Positions 3,100 through 41,173 of a stretch of 64,000 bases of DNA are shown piece after piece. The stretch comes from a virus: IMG/VR virus record IMGVR_UViG_3300044625_000894, positions 1-64,000 of that record; one strand, written 5' to 3'. The notes beneath the pieces were generated by a model. It was not told the origin of the DNA, did not search any database, and was given only the letters and a program-made list of their open reading frames with translations. The stretch's first letter is position 1; the number at the start of each line of letters is the position of its first letter. The position numbers and the translations under genes were made by a program.

Positions 3100-3176
3100 G
3101 CGCAAAGGCTGGCTGGTGGTCAGGCGGAGATTTATAAACTTTGTAGAGTAGGGTTCAATTCCCTATTTGCGCACCA
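3100..3176 (+). tRNA. tRNA, tentatively Ile (UAU)
   Basis: A 77-nt cloverleaf with perfect acceptor pairing (GCGCAAA with TTTGCGC), a perfect T arm (TAGGG, loop TTCAATT, CCCTA) and an encoded CCA end. The D arm is short (CTG/CAG). The anticodon stem is poor, with two G-U pairs and an A-A mismatch. The best 7-base loop is TTTATAA, giving anticodon UAU (isoleucine AUA), a rare codon in many hosts. The identity is uncertain because of the weak stem; the presence of a tRNA is not. Confidence 0.75.
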
Positions 3177-3186
3177 TTAAAAATTA

Positions 3187-3215
3187 TTGAAATGTTATGG
3201 TATTAATATTAAACT
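3187..3215 (+). promoter_or_regulatory. Sigma-70-like promoter before tRNA-Leu
   Basis: TTGAAA (3187-3192), a 17-base spacer and TAAACT (3210-3215) lie 14 bases before the tRNA-Leu gene, in the only sizeable gap between the first two tRNAs. The match is good but common in AT-rich DNA. Confidence 0.4.
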
Positions 3216-3229
3216 TTTAAAGTATATAC

Positions 3230-3316
3230 GGGAGCGTGGCGAAATTAGCATACGCACAGGAATTAAAATCCTGCGAAGATTTCTTCATGAGGGTGCAAGT
3301 CCCTCCGTTCCCACCA
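3230..3316 (+). tRNA. tRNA-Leu (UAA)
   Basis: 87 nt, with an acceptor GGGAGCG/CGTTCCC (one G-U pair), an anticodon stem CAGGA/TCCTG enclosing the loop ATTAAAA (anticodon UAA), a long class II variable arm (GAAGA/TCTTC) as expected for leucine tRNA, a T arm GAGGG/CCCTC, and an encoded CCA. Confidence 0.93.
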
Positions 3317-3323
3317 TTTAAAA

Positions 3324-3650
3324 ATGCATCTAGTTAATTGCAAAAAACATGGCGAAAGTCCTGCATATTTATCAAGAAAAAGATTGCGTTGTAAAAAATG
3401 TAATGTTGAAAAAGTTACAATTAGAAGACGCAAAGTAAAATTAAAAGCTATTGAATATAAAGGCGGTAGATGCGAAATTTGTGGGTACGATAAATGCGCG
3501 GGTGCATTTGATTTTCATCACAAAGATCCTAATGAAAAAGACTTTGCAATAAGTCATAATGGACATTCTCGTTCGTGGGAAAGAGTTAAAAAAGAAATTG
3601 ACAAGTGTATGCTTCTCTGTGCAAACTGTCACAGAGAGATTCACTCTTAA
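3324..3650 (+). CDS. HNH endonuclease, homing-type
   Basis: A 108-residue protein of the small phage HNH family. It has an N-terminal CxxC pair (CKKC), a second pair (CEICGYDKC), then the HNH core FDFHHKDP and the closing LLCANCHREIH. These residues form a zinc-stabilised beta-beta-alpha metal fold that nicks DNA. The gene sits exactly between tRNA-Leu (7 bases upstream) and tRNA-Asn (7 bases downstream), with no ribosome site before the ATG. This looks like a free-standing homing endonuclease inserted into the tRNA array; the alternative is a packaging or recombination nuclease. The fold is clear, the homing role is inferred. Confidence 0.88.
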   Translation: MHLVNCKKHGESPAYLSRKRLRCKKCNVEKVTIRRRKVKLKAIEYKGGRCEICGYDKCAGAFDFHHKDPNEKDFAISHNGHSRSWERVKKEIDKCMLLCANCHREIHS

Positions 3651-3657
3651 AGTTTAT

Positions 3658-3733
3658 TGGCGAGTAGCTCAGTGGTAGAAGCAAAATCCTGTTAAGATTG
3701 AGGTCGTAGGTTCGATCCCTACCTCGCCAGCCA
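3658..3733 (+). tRNA. tRNA-Asn (GUU)
   Basis: 76 nt, acceptor TGGCGAG/CTCGCCA with discriminator G and encoded CCA, D arm GCTC/GAAGC region with AGTGGTAGA loop, anticodon loop CTGTTAA (GUU) on an AATC/GATT stem, and a perfect T arm GTAGG/CCTAC around TTCGATC. Confidence 0.92.
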
Positions 3734-3806
3734 TTTTGTTTGTAGTGATCCGAATTAGTAACTCACCAGTAAGTCGTTAGTAGAAATACTGATAACCTCT
3801 TTTTAG

Positions 3807-3998
3807 ATGATTAGCTACTCTAATAAGAAGGCTGACAGAGTTAATAGATCGCTAGAAGTAGAGATAAGAGATGCATATAAATTTGGTGATGAGCCTTGTA
3901 CAGATATGCTTAATGGTTTGTCCGTCTTTGAATGCTATGGAAAGAAACTACATTTTTTTCGGAAAGATATGCAAGTGGTTAAAGCAGACAGACTGTAA
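3807..3998 (+). CDS. Doubtful small ORF, 63 aa
   Basis: An ATG-started frame fills most of the 227-base gap between tRNA-Asn and tRNA-Tyr and runs 38 bases into the tRNA-Tyr gene. The translation looks protein-like (charged, with no low complexity), but there is no ribosome site and the tRNA overlap argues against it. It may be the remnant of a mobile gene like the neighbouring HNH gene, or spurious. The gap holds no other recognisable element. Confidence 0.22.
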   Translation: MISYSNKKADRVNRSLEVEIRDAYKFGDEPCTDMLNGLSVFECYGKKLHFFRKDMQVVKADRL

Positions 3999-4046
3999 AT
4001 CTGTTCTCTTCGGGGTTCAAAGGTTCAAATCCTTTTCTTTCCACCA
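3961..4046 (+). tRNA. tRNA-Tyr (GUA)
   Basis: 86 nt with acceptor GGAAAGA/TCTTTCC, anticodon stem ending in CAGA/TCTG around loop CTGTAAA (GUA), a long bacterial-type class II variable arm, a T arm AAAGG/CCTTT and an encoded CCA. Confidence 0.92.
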
Positions 4047-34438: not shown

Positions 34439-36763
34439 TTAAATTTTATTTAATACATAATCGTATTTATTAAAAAATCCTATAGGTGGCTCATTTGCAT
34501 CTGTAAATAGATAAAATCCTGTTGTTAATTCGCTGTTTATTGGATTCGCTACGTTGAATTTATCAAAATATGGATTTAAAATTCCGGAAAATTTTCCATC
34601 AACTAATTGTATGCAAAATTGAGAATCAATACTGCCGTCTTTATTTAATCGAACAAAATAATCTCGACCGCTTGCATATCCGTATCCTTGCCCTCTAAAT
34701 GCTCCACCAATTAAAATTTTATAGTCAGTAGCGTCGTAACCATTTTTTTGAACATATACACTATAAACTCCACCACCTTCTTCTTGGGCAGAAATAGGGT
34801 CAGAATCGTTATCTATTCCAATATTAATATCAATATTATTATTAAAAGAATTAATTTCAGTTCCGTTAGGAGCTAATTTCATTAATGAAGTTGCTGATCC
34901 ATAATTCATAAAATTGCCACCAACGATAATATTTGAATCCGGATCAACTACGATAGAATTTACAGTACCCATATTTAAGAATGCGTTTGGATCAAATACT
35001 TGTATATTATTTGAAAAATTTCTATTAACAATCGCAGATGATGAAAATTTTGTAATATTTTTAAATAAATAATTTTGACAATAATAATTATCATTAGACG
35101 AACTATTGCTATATCCAAGATAAATACTGTTATCAATTTGATCTATTGAAATATCAGATAATGCCGTATTCGATCCAAATTTTACCGGAGAAGTTATTAC
35201 CATATTCACTGGTTGTGTTGCATTTTCAGAAAAAACAGCAATTGATCCATTACTACCATAATTTTGGAATTGAATCATTCCTTGTTGCGCACCAAGAAAT
35301 CCAACGCTAGGTTTAAATAATTCATTTACTTTTGTTGTATAAGGTATAGAAAATTCACCAAAATCTAATGTAAATGTTCCTGCGGTTGTAATCGGTTTAT
35401 CCACAGTTATTAACCAGCCATCATTTAAAGCCGGCCCATTATAGTATGTAAAACTTACAATTTTTGCAGAAACTCCTACCCCAAATGGTCCAGCTGCTGT
35501 TGGATTTGATGGAAATATAGGTTTACCCTGTTGCAAAAAAAATCCATACATATTAAGAGGATCTGAAATATTTAATACATATGTAGAACTGTTTGTTGCT
35601 TGAAATGAAACTGCCCCAACTAACGCATTACTTAGTGTAGAATTTGTTATTGCATTTGATCCTACTTCAAATTTATAATATCTAACATTATCAAAAGTTT
35701 CAATTCCTTGATAATAATAAAGATAATTTCCGCTAACGCCACTTATTGGTATTCCATTTGGAAAACCTGTACAAAATATCGTTTTACCGCCATATTTTTC
35801 ATAACCGTAACTTCCATCATCTTCGGGTTCTAATGCAAACCATATATAAGGTTGTCCACCAATAGTTTTACACATGGAATTAAAAAATCTATAACCATTA
35901 GTTGCAACTTGCGGTGATCCTACAGTGGTTGTTCCTGTAAATTTATAATTTCCCGTTCCTTGTAAAATAGAATATGTTGTAGTGGAGGATACGTTATTAC
36001 TTAATCTAATATAATTTACCGAAGATACCCTATAAAAATCTGTTATATAAGTTCCACTTGCAACAATACTAGCTCCTCCGGAAAGAGTTAAAGTTATTTC
36101 TGCACCTATAGATACCGGAGCAAAACTTCCGCTATAAGTTATAATTGGAGAACCTGCTGTAGTTGTAACTAATGCTGCCCCGGTTTTTATACATGGACTA
36201 TCTAAAACCGAATTAAATGTATTATCTGTAGTTCCGTCAGAATTTAATCGAATTAATCGACTTCTTCCCAGTCTTCCTTCATAATTTGAAAATGTTCCAA
36301 TAAGAACTATTTTTCCATCAGATTGAATATCAAAACTAATTATTTGAGAATTAAATTTATTTGGACCTTTTACATTATTTGAAAACGTTGTGTTTAATGT
36401 TCCATCAGCATTTAATAAAATTAAATAATCTTGATTTGTTATTCCGGAATAATTAGTAAAATTTCCAGCAATCAATATTGATCCATCAGCACGTTGTTTA
36501 ACTTTATTAATTGGTAGATTAAACTTTGCTCCATTAGATGCATTTGTTGTAAACTCATTATTAATTACGCCATCTTGTGTAACTTTAACTAAATAATTTC
36601 TACCAGTAATTCCTCCATAATTTGTGAAATTTCCAGCGATAATTATTCCGCCATCATTAGTTTCCGCATATGTATTAATTTGACCGTATAATCCCAAAAG
36701 GAGATCATTCATCACATTTTGGGAAACATAATTCTGATCGCTAAATGAAAATAAAGAAGACAT
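34439..36763 (-). CDS. Tail fibre-like protein with delta-60 repeats, 774 aa
   Basis: Contains several copies of the delta-60 repeat (PF17164-like beta-propeller blades): a strand DGGIIIAGNFTNYGG, then RNYLVKVTQDGVINNEF, then DGSILIAGNFTNYSG with YLILLNADGTLNTTF, then DGKIVLIGTFSNYEG with RLIRLNSDGTTDNTF, and again near the C-terminus (SNIIVGGNFMNYG). Such propellers are known from surface proteins and some phage fibres, and suggest ligand binding. The middle is Ser/Thr-rich beta sequence. It directly follows a smaller fibre gene in the same unit. Confidence 0.78.
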   Translation of the reverse strand: MSSLFSFSDQNYVSQNVMNDLLLGLYGQINTYAETNDGGIIIAGNFTNYGGITGRNYLVKVTQDGVINNEFTTNASNGAKFNLPINKVKQRADGSILIAGNFTNYSGITNQDYLILLNADGTLNTTFSNNVKGPNKFNSQIISFDIQSDGKIVLIGTFSNYEGRLGRSRLIRLNSDGTTDNTFNSVLDSPCIKTGAALVTTTAGSPIITYSGSFAPVSIGAEITLTLSGGASIVASGTYITDFYRVSSVNYIRLSNNVSSTTTYSILQGTGNYKFTGTTTVGSPQVATNGYRFFNSMCKTIGGQPYIWFALEPEDDGSYGYEKYGGKTIFCTGFPNGIPISGVSGNYLYYYQGIETFDNVRYYKFEVGSNAITNSTLSNALVGAVSFQATNSSTYVLNISDPLNMYGFFLQQGKPIFPSNPTAAGPFGVGVSAKIVSFTYYNGPALNDGWLITVDKPITTAGTFTLDFGEFSIPYTTKVNELFKPSVGFLGAQQGMIQFQNYGSNGSIAVFSENATQPVNMVITSPVKFGSNTALSDISIDQIDNSIYLGYSNSSSNDNYYCQNYLFKNITKFSSSAIVNRNFSNNIQVFDPNAFLNMGTVNSIVVDPDSNIIVGGNFMNYGSATSLMKLAPNGTEINSFNNNIDINIGIDNDSDPISAQEEGGGVYSVYVQKNGYDATDYKILIGGAFRGQGYGYASGRDYFVRLNKDGSIDSQFCIQLVDGKFSGILNPYFDKFNVANPINSELTTGFYLFTDANEPPIGFFNKYDYVLNKI

Positions 36764-38086: not shown

Positions 38087-38599
38087 TTAAGTTAAACTAA
38101 TTAATTCAGTTTTTGCTGACCAAGATATAGTACTTTTTAACGTGTCAATATTTCCAGAAACATACTCAGTTTGTAATTCAATTTGATTTAATGCGTTTAT
38201 AGAAAATTGATGATATGTTGATCCGTCAGAATTTTTATCTCCGGAAAATTCATCTTGTAACGTCCAAGTTGATAGCTCAAATGTTCCGGTTAAAACTCCA
38301 GATTCAACCACGGTTTTTTCTGAGGGAAGATCAGTATCAAATAACCTATAAATGGTATAATCCAATACAAATTTACGAACAAAGGTTCCGTCGAATGTTG
38401 CACCGATTACAAATGTTGATGTCGGGTTAGAATTTTGCTGTAATTTAAAAACTGTCGGAGGATAGTCGTATGGATTTGCGAATGTTTTAAGCTGTAATGC
38501 GACAAGTTCGGCAAACTGAATAACCGCAGGACTCCATAAAGCATCACTACCGCTATTCGGAAAGTTTACAACATCTGTTCCAATCGTAATTTTAGGCAT
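38087..38599 (-). CDS. Virion protein, 170 aa
   Basis: Begins on the stop codon of the holin-like gene. It is a compact protein with a helical segment (AVIQFAELVALQLKTFANPY) followed by beta strands. The pattern suggests a small tail component. No family is recognised. It belongs with the two fibre genes that follow. Confidence 0.58.
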   Translation of the reverse strand: MPKITIGTDVVNFPNSGSDALWSPAVIQFAELVALQLKTFANPYDYPPTVFKLQQNSNPTSTFVIGATFDGTFVRKFVLDYTIYRLFDTDLPSEKTVVESGVLTGTFELSTWTLQDEFSGDKNSDGSTYHQFSINALNQIELQTEYVSGNIDTLKSTISWSAKTELISLT

Positions 38600-38859
38600 T
38601 ACTCTACATCCTCTTGTTTATCAGGTTTTATCGTCTTATTTTTTCTTAAAACGTATATCCCACCTAACGCAGCAACACCTGCCGCGTAATCAACACCGTT
38701 AAAATCCGACATTTTAATTTTATCCGTAAATTGTATTCCGGAAAATAACAGCTTGAAATTAATTATGAAAAATCCTGTAATAAATGCCGTTACCGTATAT
38801 GAAGGTTTTTTAGTCTTAACGTCATTTACGATAAAAATTGACAACATTTTATTAAACAT
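38599..38859 (-). CDS. Holin-like membrane protein, 86 aa
   Basis: Two hydrophobic segments (about residues 24-40, VTAFITGFFIINFKLLF; and 57-71, DYAAGVAALGGIYVL) are followed by a charged tail RKNKTIKPDKQEDVE. The phrases PSYTVTAFITGF and YAAGVAALGGIYVLRKN are like those of a common two-segment phage holin-type family. A holin would release the lysis enzyme; no endolysin gene is adjacent. The ATG lies 14 bases after the TTAACAACT element at 38874. Confidence 0.6.
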   Translation of the reverse strand: MFNKMLSIFIVNDVKTKKPSYTVTAFITGFFIINFKLLFSGIQFTDKIKMSDFNGVDYAAGVAALGGIYVLRKNKTIKPDKQEDVE

Positions 38860-38873
38860 AATTACATCATTAC

Positions 38874-38883
38874 TAGTTGTTAA
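38874..38883 (-). promoter_or_regulatory. Late promoter-like element TTAACAACT(A/T), copy 4
   Basis: TTTTAACAACTA, then GTAATGATG, 14 bases before ATG 38859. Its 5' TTTT is the tail of the terminator at 38881-38913. Confidence 0.7.
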
Positions 38884-38913
38884 AATAAAACCTCAAGAAT
38901 AAAATCCTTGAGG
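38881..38913 (-). terminator. Intrinsic terminator after the metallopeptidase gene
   Basis: On the minus strand, CCTCAAG and CTTGAGG form a 7-bp stem over a 9-base loop, followed by TTTTATTTT that runs into the TTAACAACT element. It lies 36 bases after the metallopeptidase stop. Confidence 0.82.
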
Positions 38914-38949
38914 CTTTATTTAAAGGAGGTATGTTTAGTATAAATTGGC

Positions 38950-39780
38950 TTATTTAGGCTTATACCAACAATGAGGTCTTACTCCGATTTTATCGCCTTT
39001 TTCTTCAGCGCATGCCCCCGGAATTGGGCTATCACTTGAAAATTCTTCCGTGTACGGCATTCCACAAACTGCACCCGCAAAATAAGTATCTAAACGACAT
39101 TGAGCCTTTGGATGAGCATTATTCGTTCTTGATACTTCAGTTTTATCCGGTGTTTCAAAACTAATAACTTTTGATGAACCAGACAAACTATTTAATACAC
39201 TCGCAAGAGTATATCCAATCATTGAGCCTTTTTCACAAATCTCAATCTCTTCTTGAGACTTATGTTGTAATGAACACTTCTCTGTCACAATCTTAGGAGC
39301 ATTGATTGATTTATTTTTGCTGTATGTCATTCTTGGATAACATTTAGATGTAGCATAATAATCAGATTGTCCTTCATTTGAAGCCCAGCCCTGTGCAGGG
39401 AATCCGCCCATGTGATGCCCTAATTCATGACACATAACCATCATAAACGCTTCAGCATCCATACCCTTATATCGAGCAAGACCGCCAAATGCATTAATAA
39501 CCCACTTGCTACCTTCAGTAGTGGTATTGGCATTAACGGTATCATCAGTCCATCTGCGATTGATCTGAAGTTTATAACCTTTTTCTTTAACGAGAGGACT
39601 CATTACTTTTTCAAATTCAGAAAGAACATCATTAAATTCTTTCTCGGTAATTCCACCTTCATCTTCTTCTTGTAGTACAAAAGATGTCGGAACAAAATTA
39701 CATAATTCTTTCGGCGTTTCAGTTGATACGCTAAAAAATGCTAAAAGTGCTGCTAAAGATACTAGTTTCATATACTTCAT
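38950..39780 (-). CDS. Secreted M48-like zinc metallopeptidase, 276 aa
   Basis: A signal peptide (MKYMKLVSLAALLAFFSVST) predicts export. The zinc motif HELGHH (H118, E119, H122) lies in MVMCHELGHHMGG, and EGQSDYYA (E136, D140) gives the downstream ligand, as in M48 proteases. The region HPKAQCRLDTYF and several cysteines suggest a disulfide-bonded periplasmic or outer protein; I recall this phrase in cellular predatory-bacterium peptidases, without being able to check. GGAG lies before the ATG. It has its own TTAACAACT element (39851) and terminator (38881), unlike its structural neighbours. It looks like a late moron acting on the host envelope, or a virion processing enzyme. Confidence 0.82.
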   Translation of the reverse strand: MKYMKLVSLAALLAFFSVSTETPKELCNFVPTSFVLQEEDEGGITEKEFNDVLSEFEKVMSPLVKEKGYKLQINRRWTDDTVNANTTTEGSKWVINAFGGLARYKGMDAEAFMMVMCHELGHHMGGFPAQGWASNEGQSDYYATSKCYPRMTYSKNKSINAPKIVTEKCSLQHKSQEEIEICEKGSMIGYTLASVLNSLSGSSKVISFETPDKTEVSRTNNAHPKAQCRLDTYFAGAVCGMPYTEEFSSDSPIPGACAEEKGDKIGVRPHCWYKPK

Positions 39781-39850: not shown

Positions 39851-39860
39851 TAGTTGTTAA
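39851..39860 (-). promoter_or_regulatory. Late promoter-like element TTAACAACT(A/T), copy 5
   Basis: TTTTAACAACTA, then TTATTGATT, 70 bases before the metallopeptidase ATG. It joins the T-run of the terminator at 39861-39895. Confidence 0.72.
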
Positions 39861-39895
39861 AATAAAAAAAGGGAGCGAATCAGTGATCCGCTCCC
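39861..39895 (-). terminator. Intrinsic terminator after the major capsid gene
   Basis: On the minus strand GGGAGCG and CGCTCCC form a 7-bp GC-rich stem over an 11-base loop, then TTTTTTTATTTT. It lies 24 bases after the capsid gene stop and should end the capsid transcript. Confidence 0.92.
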
Positions 39896-39919
39896 TCTTA
39901 ATTAATCATTAACTAGCTA

Positions 39920-41173
39920 TTAAGCTTGGTTAACAATGTTTTTAATCAATACGTTTTTACCCGGAGATGCACAGAAAATAGCTTGGTCAGTGTAGCAACG
40001 AAGCTCATAACCAGAAGCATTTTCGAGATCACGGAAGAAGCGGCCATCTGCACCCGGACGTTGGAAAGTAACGTCAGTAGAACCAACGCGTGCCCAGTCT
40101 TCAGCGTACAAGATGTAACCATAACCTTCTTTAACATAGATAGAAGGAATGATTTCGATCTCACCGTTTTGAGAGTGGAACAAGAGAGATTCAGAACCGT
40201 TTTCTGCTTTTTGTTTAGAGTAAGAACCATCGTACTTACGAAGAGCAGCTTGGTCGTTCATCATGTTTGCCCATGCGCGAGGGTTAATCAACGCAGTTAC
40301 TTTAGATTCCAAACCTTTTTCTACAGCGCGAGCGATAGATTGATTGAGTTTAGAGAAAGAAAGCGCACCGTTTTGAGCATCGTACTCGTTACCTTTGAAA
40401 AGGTTGTAAGTAGCGGTGTCAATGTTGAAGAGAACACCAGAGGTAGTCAATACTTTGTGAATTCCAACGAATTCATTGCCGTATGCGCCTTTGTGCCAGA
40501 TGATATCGTTACCAGCAGAGATACCAGCAGGAGCTGCATCAACGGTAACAGTTTTGTTTTCCATATCAACAGATACTACATTACAGTAACCACGGAGAGT
40601 ACCGGTGTTGCTGCGGATTTCAAGTGGCATGTTTTCAGCACCTGCCCAGATACCCGGAGCCCATTCAGAATCCTTAATAGGAAGAACGTTACCAGCTGCA
40701 TAGGTAGATTTAACTACTGCGTAACCAACTTGACCGTAAAGCATTTCGATCTCAAGTTTTTTAACCATAGAACGAAGCATGTTACCAACTACAAATTTAG
40801 TTGCATCCATGAATGCTTGTGCGCCGCCTTGAGCTGCGCGGGAAGCTGCAGTGTAACCAAGGATAGAACGGAGAACCGCTGGGGAACCACGAACTTGTGC
40901 ATCTTTGATTGCGCCAGAGATTGCTGGAAGGAGAGCGAAAGCATCGTCTTCGCTAGAAGCGAAAGTGATACCATGTTCCAAACCAAGAACTACTGGTTGG
41001 TGATAGAGGTTACCCGGTTGCTTATCTTTAGACATGAATTTAATCATGTTCAAGATTTTAACGCCATCCGGAATCAATTCTTTCATTTTATCCGCATATA
41101 CTTCTTTGAACAAACCGTTCAAATTACCTACTGTATTATCCGGAGTACTAAATACGTTTGCTACATTTGACAT
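39920..41173 (-). CDS. Major capsid protein, 417 aa
   Basis: Placed directly after the scaffold and a cement-like gene and followed by a strong terminator, as expected for the most abundant late product. The sequence is rich in Ala/Gly/Val. A helical N-terminal arm (NLNGLFKEVYADKMKELIPD) is followed by segments such as AASRAAQGGAQAFMDATKFV (spine-helix-like) and a C-terminal part with LINPRAWANMMNDQAALRKY. This resembles HK97-fold capsids, particularly those of N4-like and related podoviruses. The gene shows stronger codon bias than its neighbours, so a full-length shadow frame exists on the other strand. Confidence 0.82.
   Translation of the reverse strand: MSNVANVFSTPDNTVGNLNGLFKEVYADKMKELIPDGVKILNMIKFMSKDKQPGNLYHQPVVLGLEHGITFASSEDDAFALLPAISGAIKDAQVRGSPAVLRSILGYTAASRAAQGGAQAFMDATKFVVGNMLRSMVKKLEIEMLYGQVGYAVVKSTYAAGNVLPIKDSEWAPGIWAGAENMPLEIRSNTGTLRGYCNVVSVDMENKTVTVDAAPAGISAGNDIIWHKGAYGNEFVGIHKVLTTSGVLFNIDTATYNLFKGNEYDAQNGALSFSKLNQSIARAVEKGLESKVTALINPRAWANMMNDQAALRKYDGSYSKQKAENGSESLLFHSQNGEIEIIPSIYVKEGYGYILYAEDWARVGSTDVTFQRPGADGRFFRDLENASGYELRCYTDQAIFCASPGKNVLIKNIVNQA

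Follow-up and report, generated by a model that had tools for sequence, protein, structure and literature searches.

The window, that is, the whole stretch of 64,000 nt that was analysed, comes from a virus record of 70,640 bases. On its minus strand, an open reading frame of 276 codons lies between the gene of the major capsid protein and a small gene (Table 1). An earlier note on this DNA had singled out the frame for the motifs HELGHH and EGQSDYYA (residues 136–143), for an N-terminal leader and for its position, with the capsid gene on one side and a small gene on the other, and all of these are present. By the evidence of its sequence, the frame is a real gene. More than 150 homologues were found in all, and the six other viral ones share 51–71% identity with the window protein. 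The dN/dS ratio is 0.093 against the closest homologue (L001), a pair for which dS is saturated, and 0.087 for the viral pair L004 and L006, for which dS is 0.12 and unsaturated. Because the ratio is about 0.09, also in the unsaturated pair, the gene appears to be under purifying selection.

Table 1. Features at the protease locus, with window positions
Feature	Position	Strand	Basis or remark
G170, a 170-aa gene that closes the cargo interval	38087..38599	-	Kept in most relatives
Small gene, 86 aa, weakly membrane-like	38599..38859	-	Only in the protease-bearing phage subclade
Candidate late-type promoter element TTTTAACAACTA before the 86-aa gene	38874..38885	-	Motif count and conservation
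Terminator hairpin behind the protease gene	38883..38921	-	z -6.9; window only
Gene of the likely exported zinc protease, 276 aa, ATG start	38950..39780	-	Open reading frame, homologues and selection
EGQSD, with putative third zinc ligand E136 and D140	39361..39375	-	E136 and D140 unchanged in all 78 sequences
HELGHH, zinc-binding and catalytic motif, residues 118-123	39412..39429	-	H118, E119 and H122 invariant in 78 sequences
Leader (signal-peptide-like), residues 1-19	39724..39780	-	Cleavage after SVS judged by eye
Candidate late-type promoter element TTTTAACAACTA before the protease gene	39851..39862	-	Motif count and conservation
Terminator hairpin behind the capsid gene	39867..39899	-	z -5.3; kept in all seven viral copies
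Major capsid protein gene	39920..41173	-	PHROG 14242 major head protein, E=1.5e-13

The earlier note had described the protease gene as a late transcription unit with its own promoter element and terminator. Allowing at most one mismatch, the element TTTTAACAACTA occurs 10 times in the window against 1.55 expected, and none of 100 shuffles reaches 10. The four exact copies all lie on the minus strand; one of them precedes the protease gene and another the 86-aa gene. The element is a candidate late promoter. Before the protease gene it is kept in L001, L137, L138 and L136, again allowing one mismatch, and is missing in L004 and L006. The hairpin behind the capsid gene carries a T run. The terminator behind the protease gene is confined to the window; in L001, for example, the gene that follows begins 15 nt after the protease gene. 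The description of an own late unit thus appears to hold for the window and in part for the subclade. All seven viral copies of the gene sit between capsid and tail genes.

The 86-aa gene had been called holin-like, a likeness that proved weak, as its best 19-residue hydropathy is 1.6 and it has no match to a Pfam or PHROG family. Elsewhere in the window, the tail or fibre region encodes a 774-aa protein with five DUF5122 beta-propeller repeats (34439-36763), and four tRNA genes (Ile-TAT, Leu-TAA, Asn-GTT and Tyr-GTA) lie behind the ribonucleotide reductase genes (3100-4046).

Protein family, fold and signs of export

Searches with the window protein gave no Pfam match at E≤10 and nothing in PHROGs below E=0.1, and no useful match was found in the PDB, searched by sequence and by family profile, or among the INPHARED phages. 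Weak matches of subclade members to Pfam point to M48, to reprolysins and to M6. The cut-off of the M48 profile (PF01435) was reached by neither the window protein nor anything else in the record, which gave no match, and two of eight subclade members gave matches with a best E-value of 0.033; membership of M48 by profile was therefore rejected. Metzincins (M6, M12) share the pattern HExxHxxGxxH/D, and these were rejected because residue 128 is a proline that is nearly invariant in the family; the M6 model scores 17.4 bits against a cut-off of 110.8.

The AlphaFold2 model of the protease reached a mean pLDDT of 91.7 with a 78-sequence alignment and 73.5 with eight sequences. In VIA-align, the closest structure to the model was the M48 protease BepA (Z 8.2, 4.2 Å over 136 residues), followed within less than one Z unit by Ste24p (7.6), Zmp1 (7.6) and neprilysin (7.5). 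Foldseek returned no match in the PDB at E≤0.001, and its best viral match was a phage protein named 'Peptidase M48' (E=2.4e-3). The gluzincin signature, HExxH with a downstream glutamate in an ExxxD-type motif, occurs in all 78 aligned sequences, and H118, E119, H122, E136 and D140 are unvaried in 78 of 78. The protein shares HExxH, the later glutamate and a mostly helical gluzincin core with M48 enzymes such as BepA/YfgC, Ste24p and Geobacter Q74D82, and BepA is a periplasmic protease too. It differs from them in its failure to match M48 in Pfam, in its eight conserved cysteines and in a C-terminal part of its own, and M13 and other gluzincins lie within one Z unit of the best structure. The earlier label "M48-like" describes at most a resemblance of folds, without a match to the Pfam profiles. 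We call the protein gluzincin-type and do not file it under M48.

The leader, MKYMKLVSLAALLAFFSVS, begins with a few basic residues, continues into a hydrophobic core and could plausibly be cleaved after SVS, as judged by eye and by hydropathy; judged in the same way, the basic start and hydrophobic core recur in the viral copies. Each of the eight cysteines is kept in 75–78 of the 78 aligned sequences. Cys117 and Cys147 occur together in 75 sequences, are both missing in three and are never found singly, although the rows of the alignment are related and the counts are not independent. The pair is missing alike from the viral L136, L004 and L006 and from the bacterial L054. A disulfide pair formed in an oxidising compartment is the best account of this covariation. 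Because of the leader and the disulfide pattern, the protease is likely exported, and the earlier claim of a secreted protein gains support from the leader in the phage copies and from the eight cysteines, with Cys117 and Cys147 kept or lost jointly in 78 of 78 sequences.

Origin of the gene and its relation to the capsid gene

Members of the protease family were collected with hand-made motif patterns from IMG/VR and from one genome per species. The motif scans yielded at least 173 open frames in at least 140 sources, spread across phyla as read from the record titles. In a genome survey that covered the Bdellovibrionota, 90 of 144 sampled genomes carry the family, with up to nine copies each, often in tandem. 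In a tree of 61 sequences inferred with a mixture model in IQ-TREE, the seven viral copies come together in a single clade (99/99) that is embedded in bacterial sequences. The sister of this clade is L054, from a Bdellovibrionota metagenome-assembled genome (MAG) (100/96), and both belong to a larger clade with 15 members (100/98). Of its eight cellular members, five have Bdellovibrionota titles, and the other three, with loose or doubtful MAG titles, stand beside Bdellovibrionota sequences. A tree of 153 sequences gave the same picture. The donor group that the earlier note had hoped to find from such a tree is thus the Bdellovibrionota. Cellular members such as L054 share 36–50% identity with the phage protein over the full length, along with all motif residues, nearly all cysteines and the leader; they differ in being cellular and often multi-copy in tandem, whereas the phage copies form a clade of their own within a late phage block. 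The MAG titles of L023 (Lysobacteraceae), L051 and L087 (Nitrosovibrio, Betaproteobacteria) look wrong or contaminated: the genome of L023 falls in the phylum of L054, and L051 and L087 group with Bdellovibrionota sequences. A genome survey that started from L023 therefore covered nearly the same genomes as the one that started from L054.

On the 61-sequence tree, the label virus or cell must change at least six times, of which the starred branches force only three. Given these changes, uptake of the gene by several phage lineages is probable. No description of the family in phages was found in the open-licence papers that were searched.

The host can be approached from three sides. A degraded prophage whose capsid gene belongs to this lineage (38% identity, two in-frame TAG codons) was found in a Bdellovibrionota genome (L192:5418-19590 and L193; genome G239, contig 4), on a contig of 155 kb and behind genes read as DnaE and LipB. 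The only annotated phage matched by the window capsid protein is a Silvanigrella phage, at 30% identity. Together with the ancestry of the protease, these two matches make a host among the Bdellovibrionota likely from sequence. The virus probably infects predatory bacteria; the Bdellovibrionota include non-predators too.

The first set of phages had been found through the protease and was therefore biased, so IMG/VR was searched using the capsid protein as the sole query. Five contigs reach a capsid identity of at least 76%, and in each of them the protease gene occupies the same position and is followed by the 86-aa gene. Most of the virus records are fragments. Where capsid identity is 70% or less, the protease is present in none of 18 complete intervals between the capsid gene and G170, and a search of whole records from such relatives, in which positive controls worked, found it in none of 16, nine of them about 79–86 kb long. 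The capsid proteins of the relatives that lack the protease align nearly over the full length (residues 5–415 of 417). Because it is absent from relatives with the same full-length capsid protein, the protease is best seen as cargo acquired in the subclade, and therefore not as a head-maturation enzyme. The latter was rejected, as the gene does not travel with the capsid gene below 71% identity. This agrees with the earlier view that the protein is not a capsid protease. Wide co-occurrence in related phages, named earlier as the observation that would speak for such a protease, is seen inside one subclade only and breaks down in the wider capsid lineage. Within that lineage, sequence comparison has shown the protease to be restricted to one phage subclade and to have a cellular ancestry.

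In the relatives, the interval that follows the capsid gene serves as a site for cargo. Mostly it contains genes read by eye as HNH- or GIY-YIG-like endonucleases, in some cases an M15 peptidase gene and in others nothing; in L147-L177, most relatives have such homing-endonuclease-like genes directly behind the capsid gene. The capsid gene itself is split near residue 56–84 by an insertion of about 0.9–1.8 kb in L138 (6682-8950) and in L164, L165, L166, L167, L172, L174, L176 and L177. Rfam, at its gathering threshold, showed no intron in four split capsid genes, and the insertion is possibly an undescribed intron or an intein-like insertion. Exchange of the protease gene and the 86-aa gene as a cassette was considered and found to be weakly supported: L004 and L006 are 97% identical there and 87–89% identical in the capsid gene, G170 and the first fibre gene, yet other genes reach 94–95%.

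The window gene shares with phage morons the state of a host-derived single gene in a structural block, with its own promoter-like element and terminator and a patchy presence among relatives. It is unlike them in coding for a probably exported protease fixed in a subclade, from a family captured by several phage lineages, and in having its own terminator only in the window.

Possible roles in infection

We favour the following explanation, to which we give an even chance: a host-derived exported protease, made late, would help lysis or escape beside the M15 endolysin. A phage of Bdellovibrionota would have captured the gene of an exported zinc protease from its host, once in this lineage, and taken it up into its late block, where the gene lies between those for capsid and tail. 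There it would be read late from the promoter-like element of that block, as the element and the neighbouring genes suggest. The leader would carry the protein over the inner membrane; on the far side, as many as four disulfides could form, given the pattern of cysteines. Proteolysis would proceed through HExxH and ExxxD, whose residues are all invariant. The least certain step is the last, in which the enzyme may digest proteins of the host envelope or of the host's surroundings and so make lysis or release quicker or fuller, beside the M15 endolysin and not in its place. That endolysin (phrog_894, E=6.6e-25) is encoded at 68734-69168 of the record, away from the protease gene; because it is present as a separate gene, the protease was rejected as the peptidoglycan endolysin of the phage. 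Beside a small membrane-like gene and near the M15 gene, a second HExxH protein (HELIH, 372 aa) without a PHROG match is encoded on the minus strand (L189:2369-3487; record 66369-67487).

The earlier note had offered lysis, receptor shaving and a superinfection block as envelope roles; among these, neighbours in other phage lineages favour lysis or escape. A family member adjoins an Amidase_2 endolysin gene in L140. In L128 and L141, one adjoins the gene of an exported papain-like protease (Peptidase_C1, E=2.1e-42), which itself adjoins an Amidase_2 endolysin gene, and in L129 a member lies about 3 kb from a lysozyme gene. The M15 peptidase genes that some relatives have in the interval behind the capsid gene point the same way. 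Genes of exported hydrolases cluster in L128:100-3025, L141:1868-6543 and L002:50-3631, and L002 holds the metalloprotease family twice. In bacteria, Bd2269, an exported subtilase-type protease of Bdellovibrio bacteriovorus, is produced at prey exit; its expression in E. coli lyses these cells from within, and prey exit is delayed when it is lost (PMC12546842). Bd2269 thus resembles the proposed role, in that an exported protease breaks open a Gram-negative cell from inside and hastens release (PMC12546842), although it is a serine protease, unrelated in sequence and encoded by a cellular gene. These neighbours and this precedent are why we favour lysis or escape. Against it stand the weak likeness of the next gene to a holin, the place of the endolysin elsewhere in the genome and the copy in L007, of another lineage, which lies beside tail-sheath genes and not lysis genes. 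The same family could also serve feeding in the hosts, which we count against this explanation.

A role directed at prey, which the earlier note had left out of account, is entertained because the donor group includes predators; we rank it second and hold it to be rather unlikely. An infected predator would secrete the phage protease to break down its prey or to breach the prey remnant from within, which would feed the infection or free the progeny from the prey ghost. The family is widespread and multi-copy in the donor group, and other phage lineages cluster it with exported Peptidase_C1 genes and with thermonuclease-like and glycoside-hydrolase-like genes (the latter two named by eye). The late place beside the capsid gene suits release more than feeding, and not every member of the likely host phylum is a predator. 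The part that exported proteases play when Bdellovibrio leaves its prey (PMC12546842) fits such a role as well.

Receptor shaving or superinfection exclusion, which we place third and consider improbable, would have the enzyme strip surface proteins of the infected cell, which would keep progeny from rebinding or a second phage from entering. An exported, late protease that is fixed in one subclade would suit it; no positive sign points to it, and the neighbours in other lineages are of the lysis type. Genes for superinfection exclusion are also usually early or lysogenic, which counts against it. Last and very improbable is a virion part or head-maturation protease. In its favour, the gene immediately follows the capsid gene in each of the seven subclade members, and the L007 relative lies in a tail-sheath region; against it stand the leader and disulfide pattern, the absence from relatives whose capsid aligns over residues 5–415 of 417 and the nesting within a cellular exported family.

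Host-derived phage cargo is of an already known kind. A broader picture, which we put forward tentatively and hold to be unlikely rather than probable, is one of "auxiliary predation genes": phages of predatory bacteria would repeatedly have captured the exported predation enzymes of their hosts and would use them late, so that progeny get past the predator envelope and the prey remains. Not found described in the open-licence literature searched is a predator-type exported protease family without a Pfam entry, fixed beside the capsid gene in a phage subclade and found also in several unrelated phage lineages. The protease thereby offers a testable entry to a little-studied question, namely how phages leave bacteria that live by digesting bacteria.
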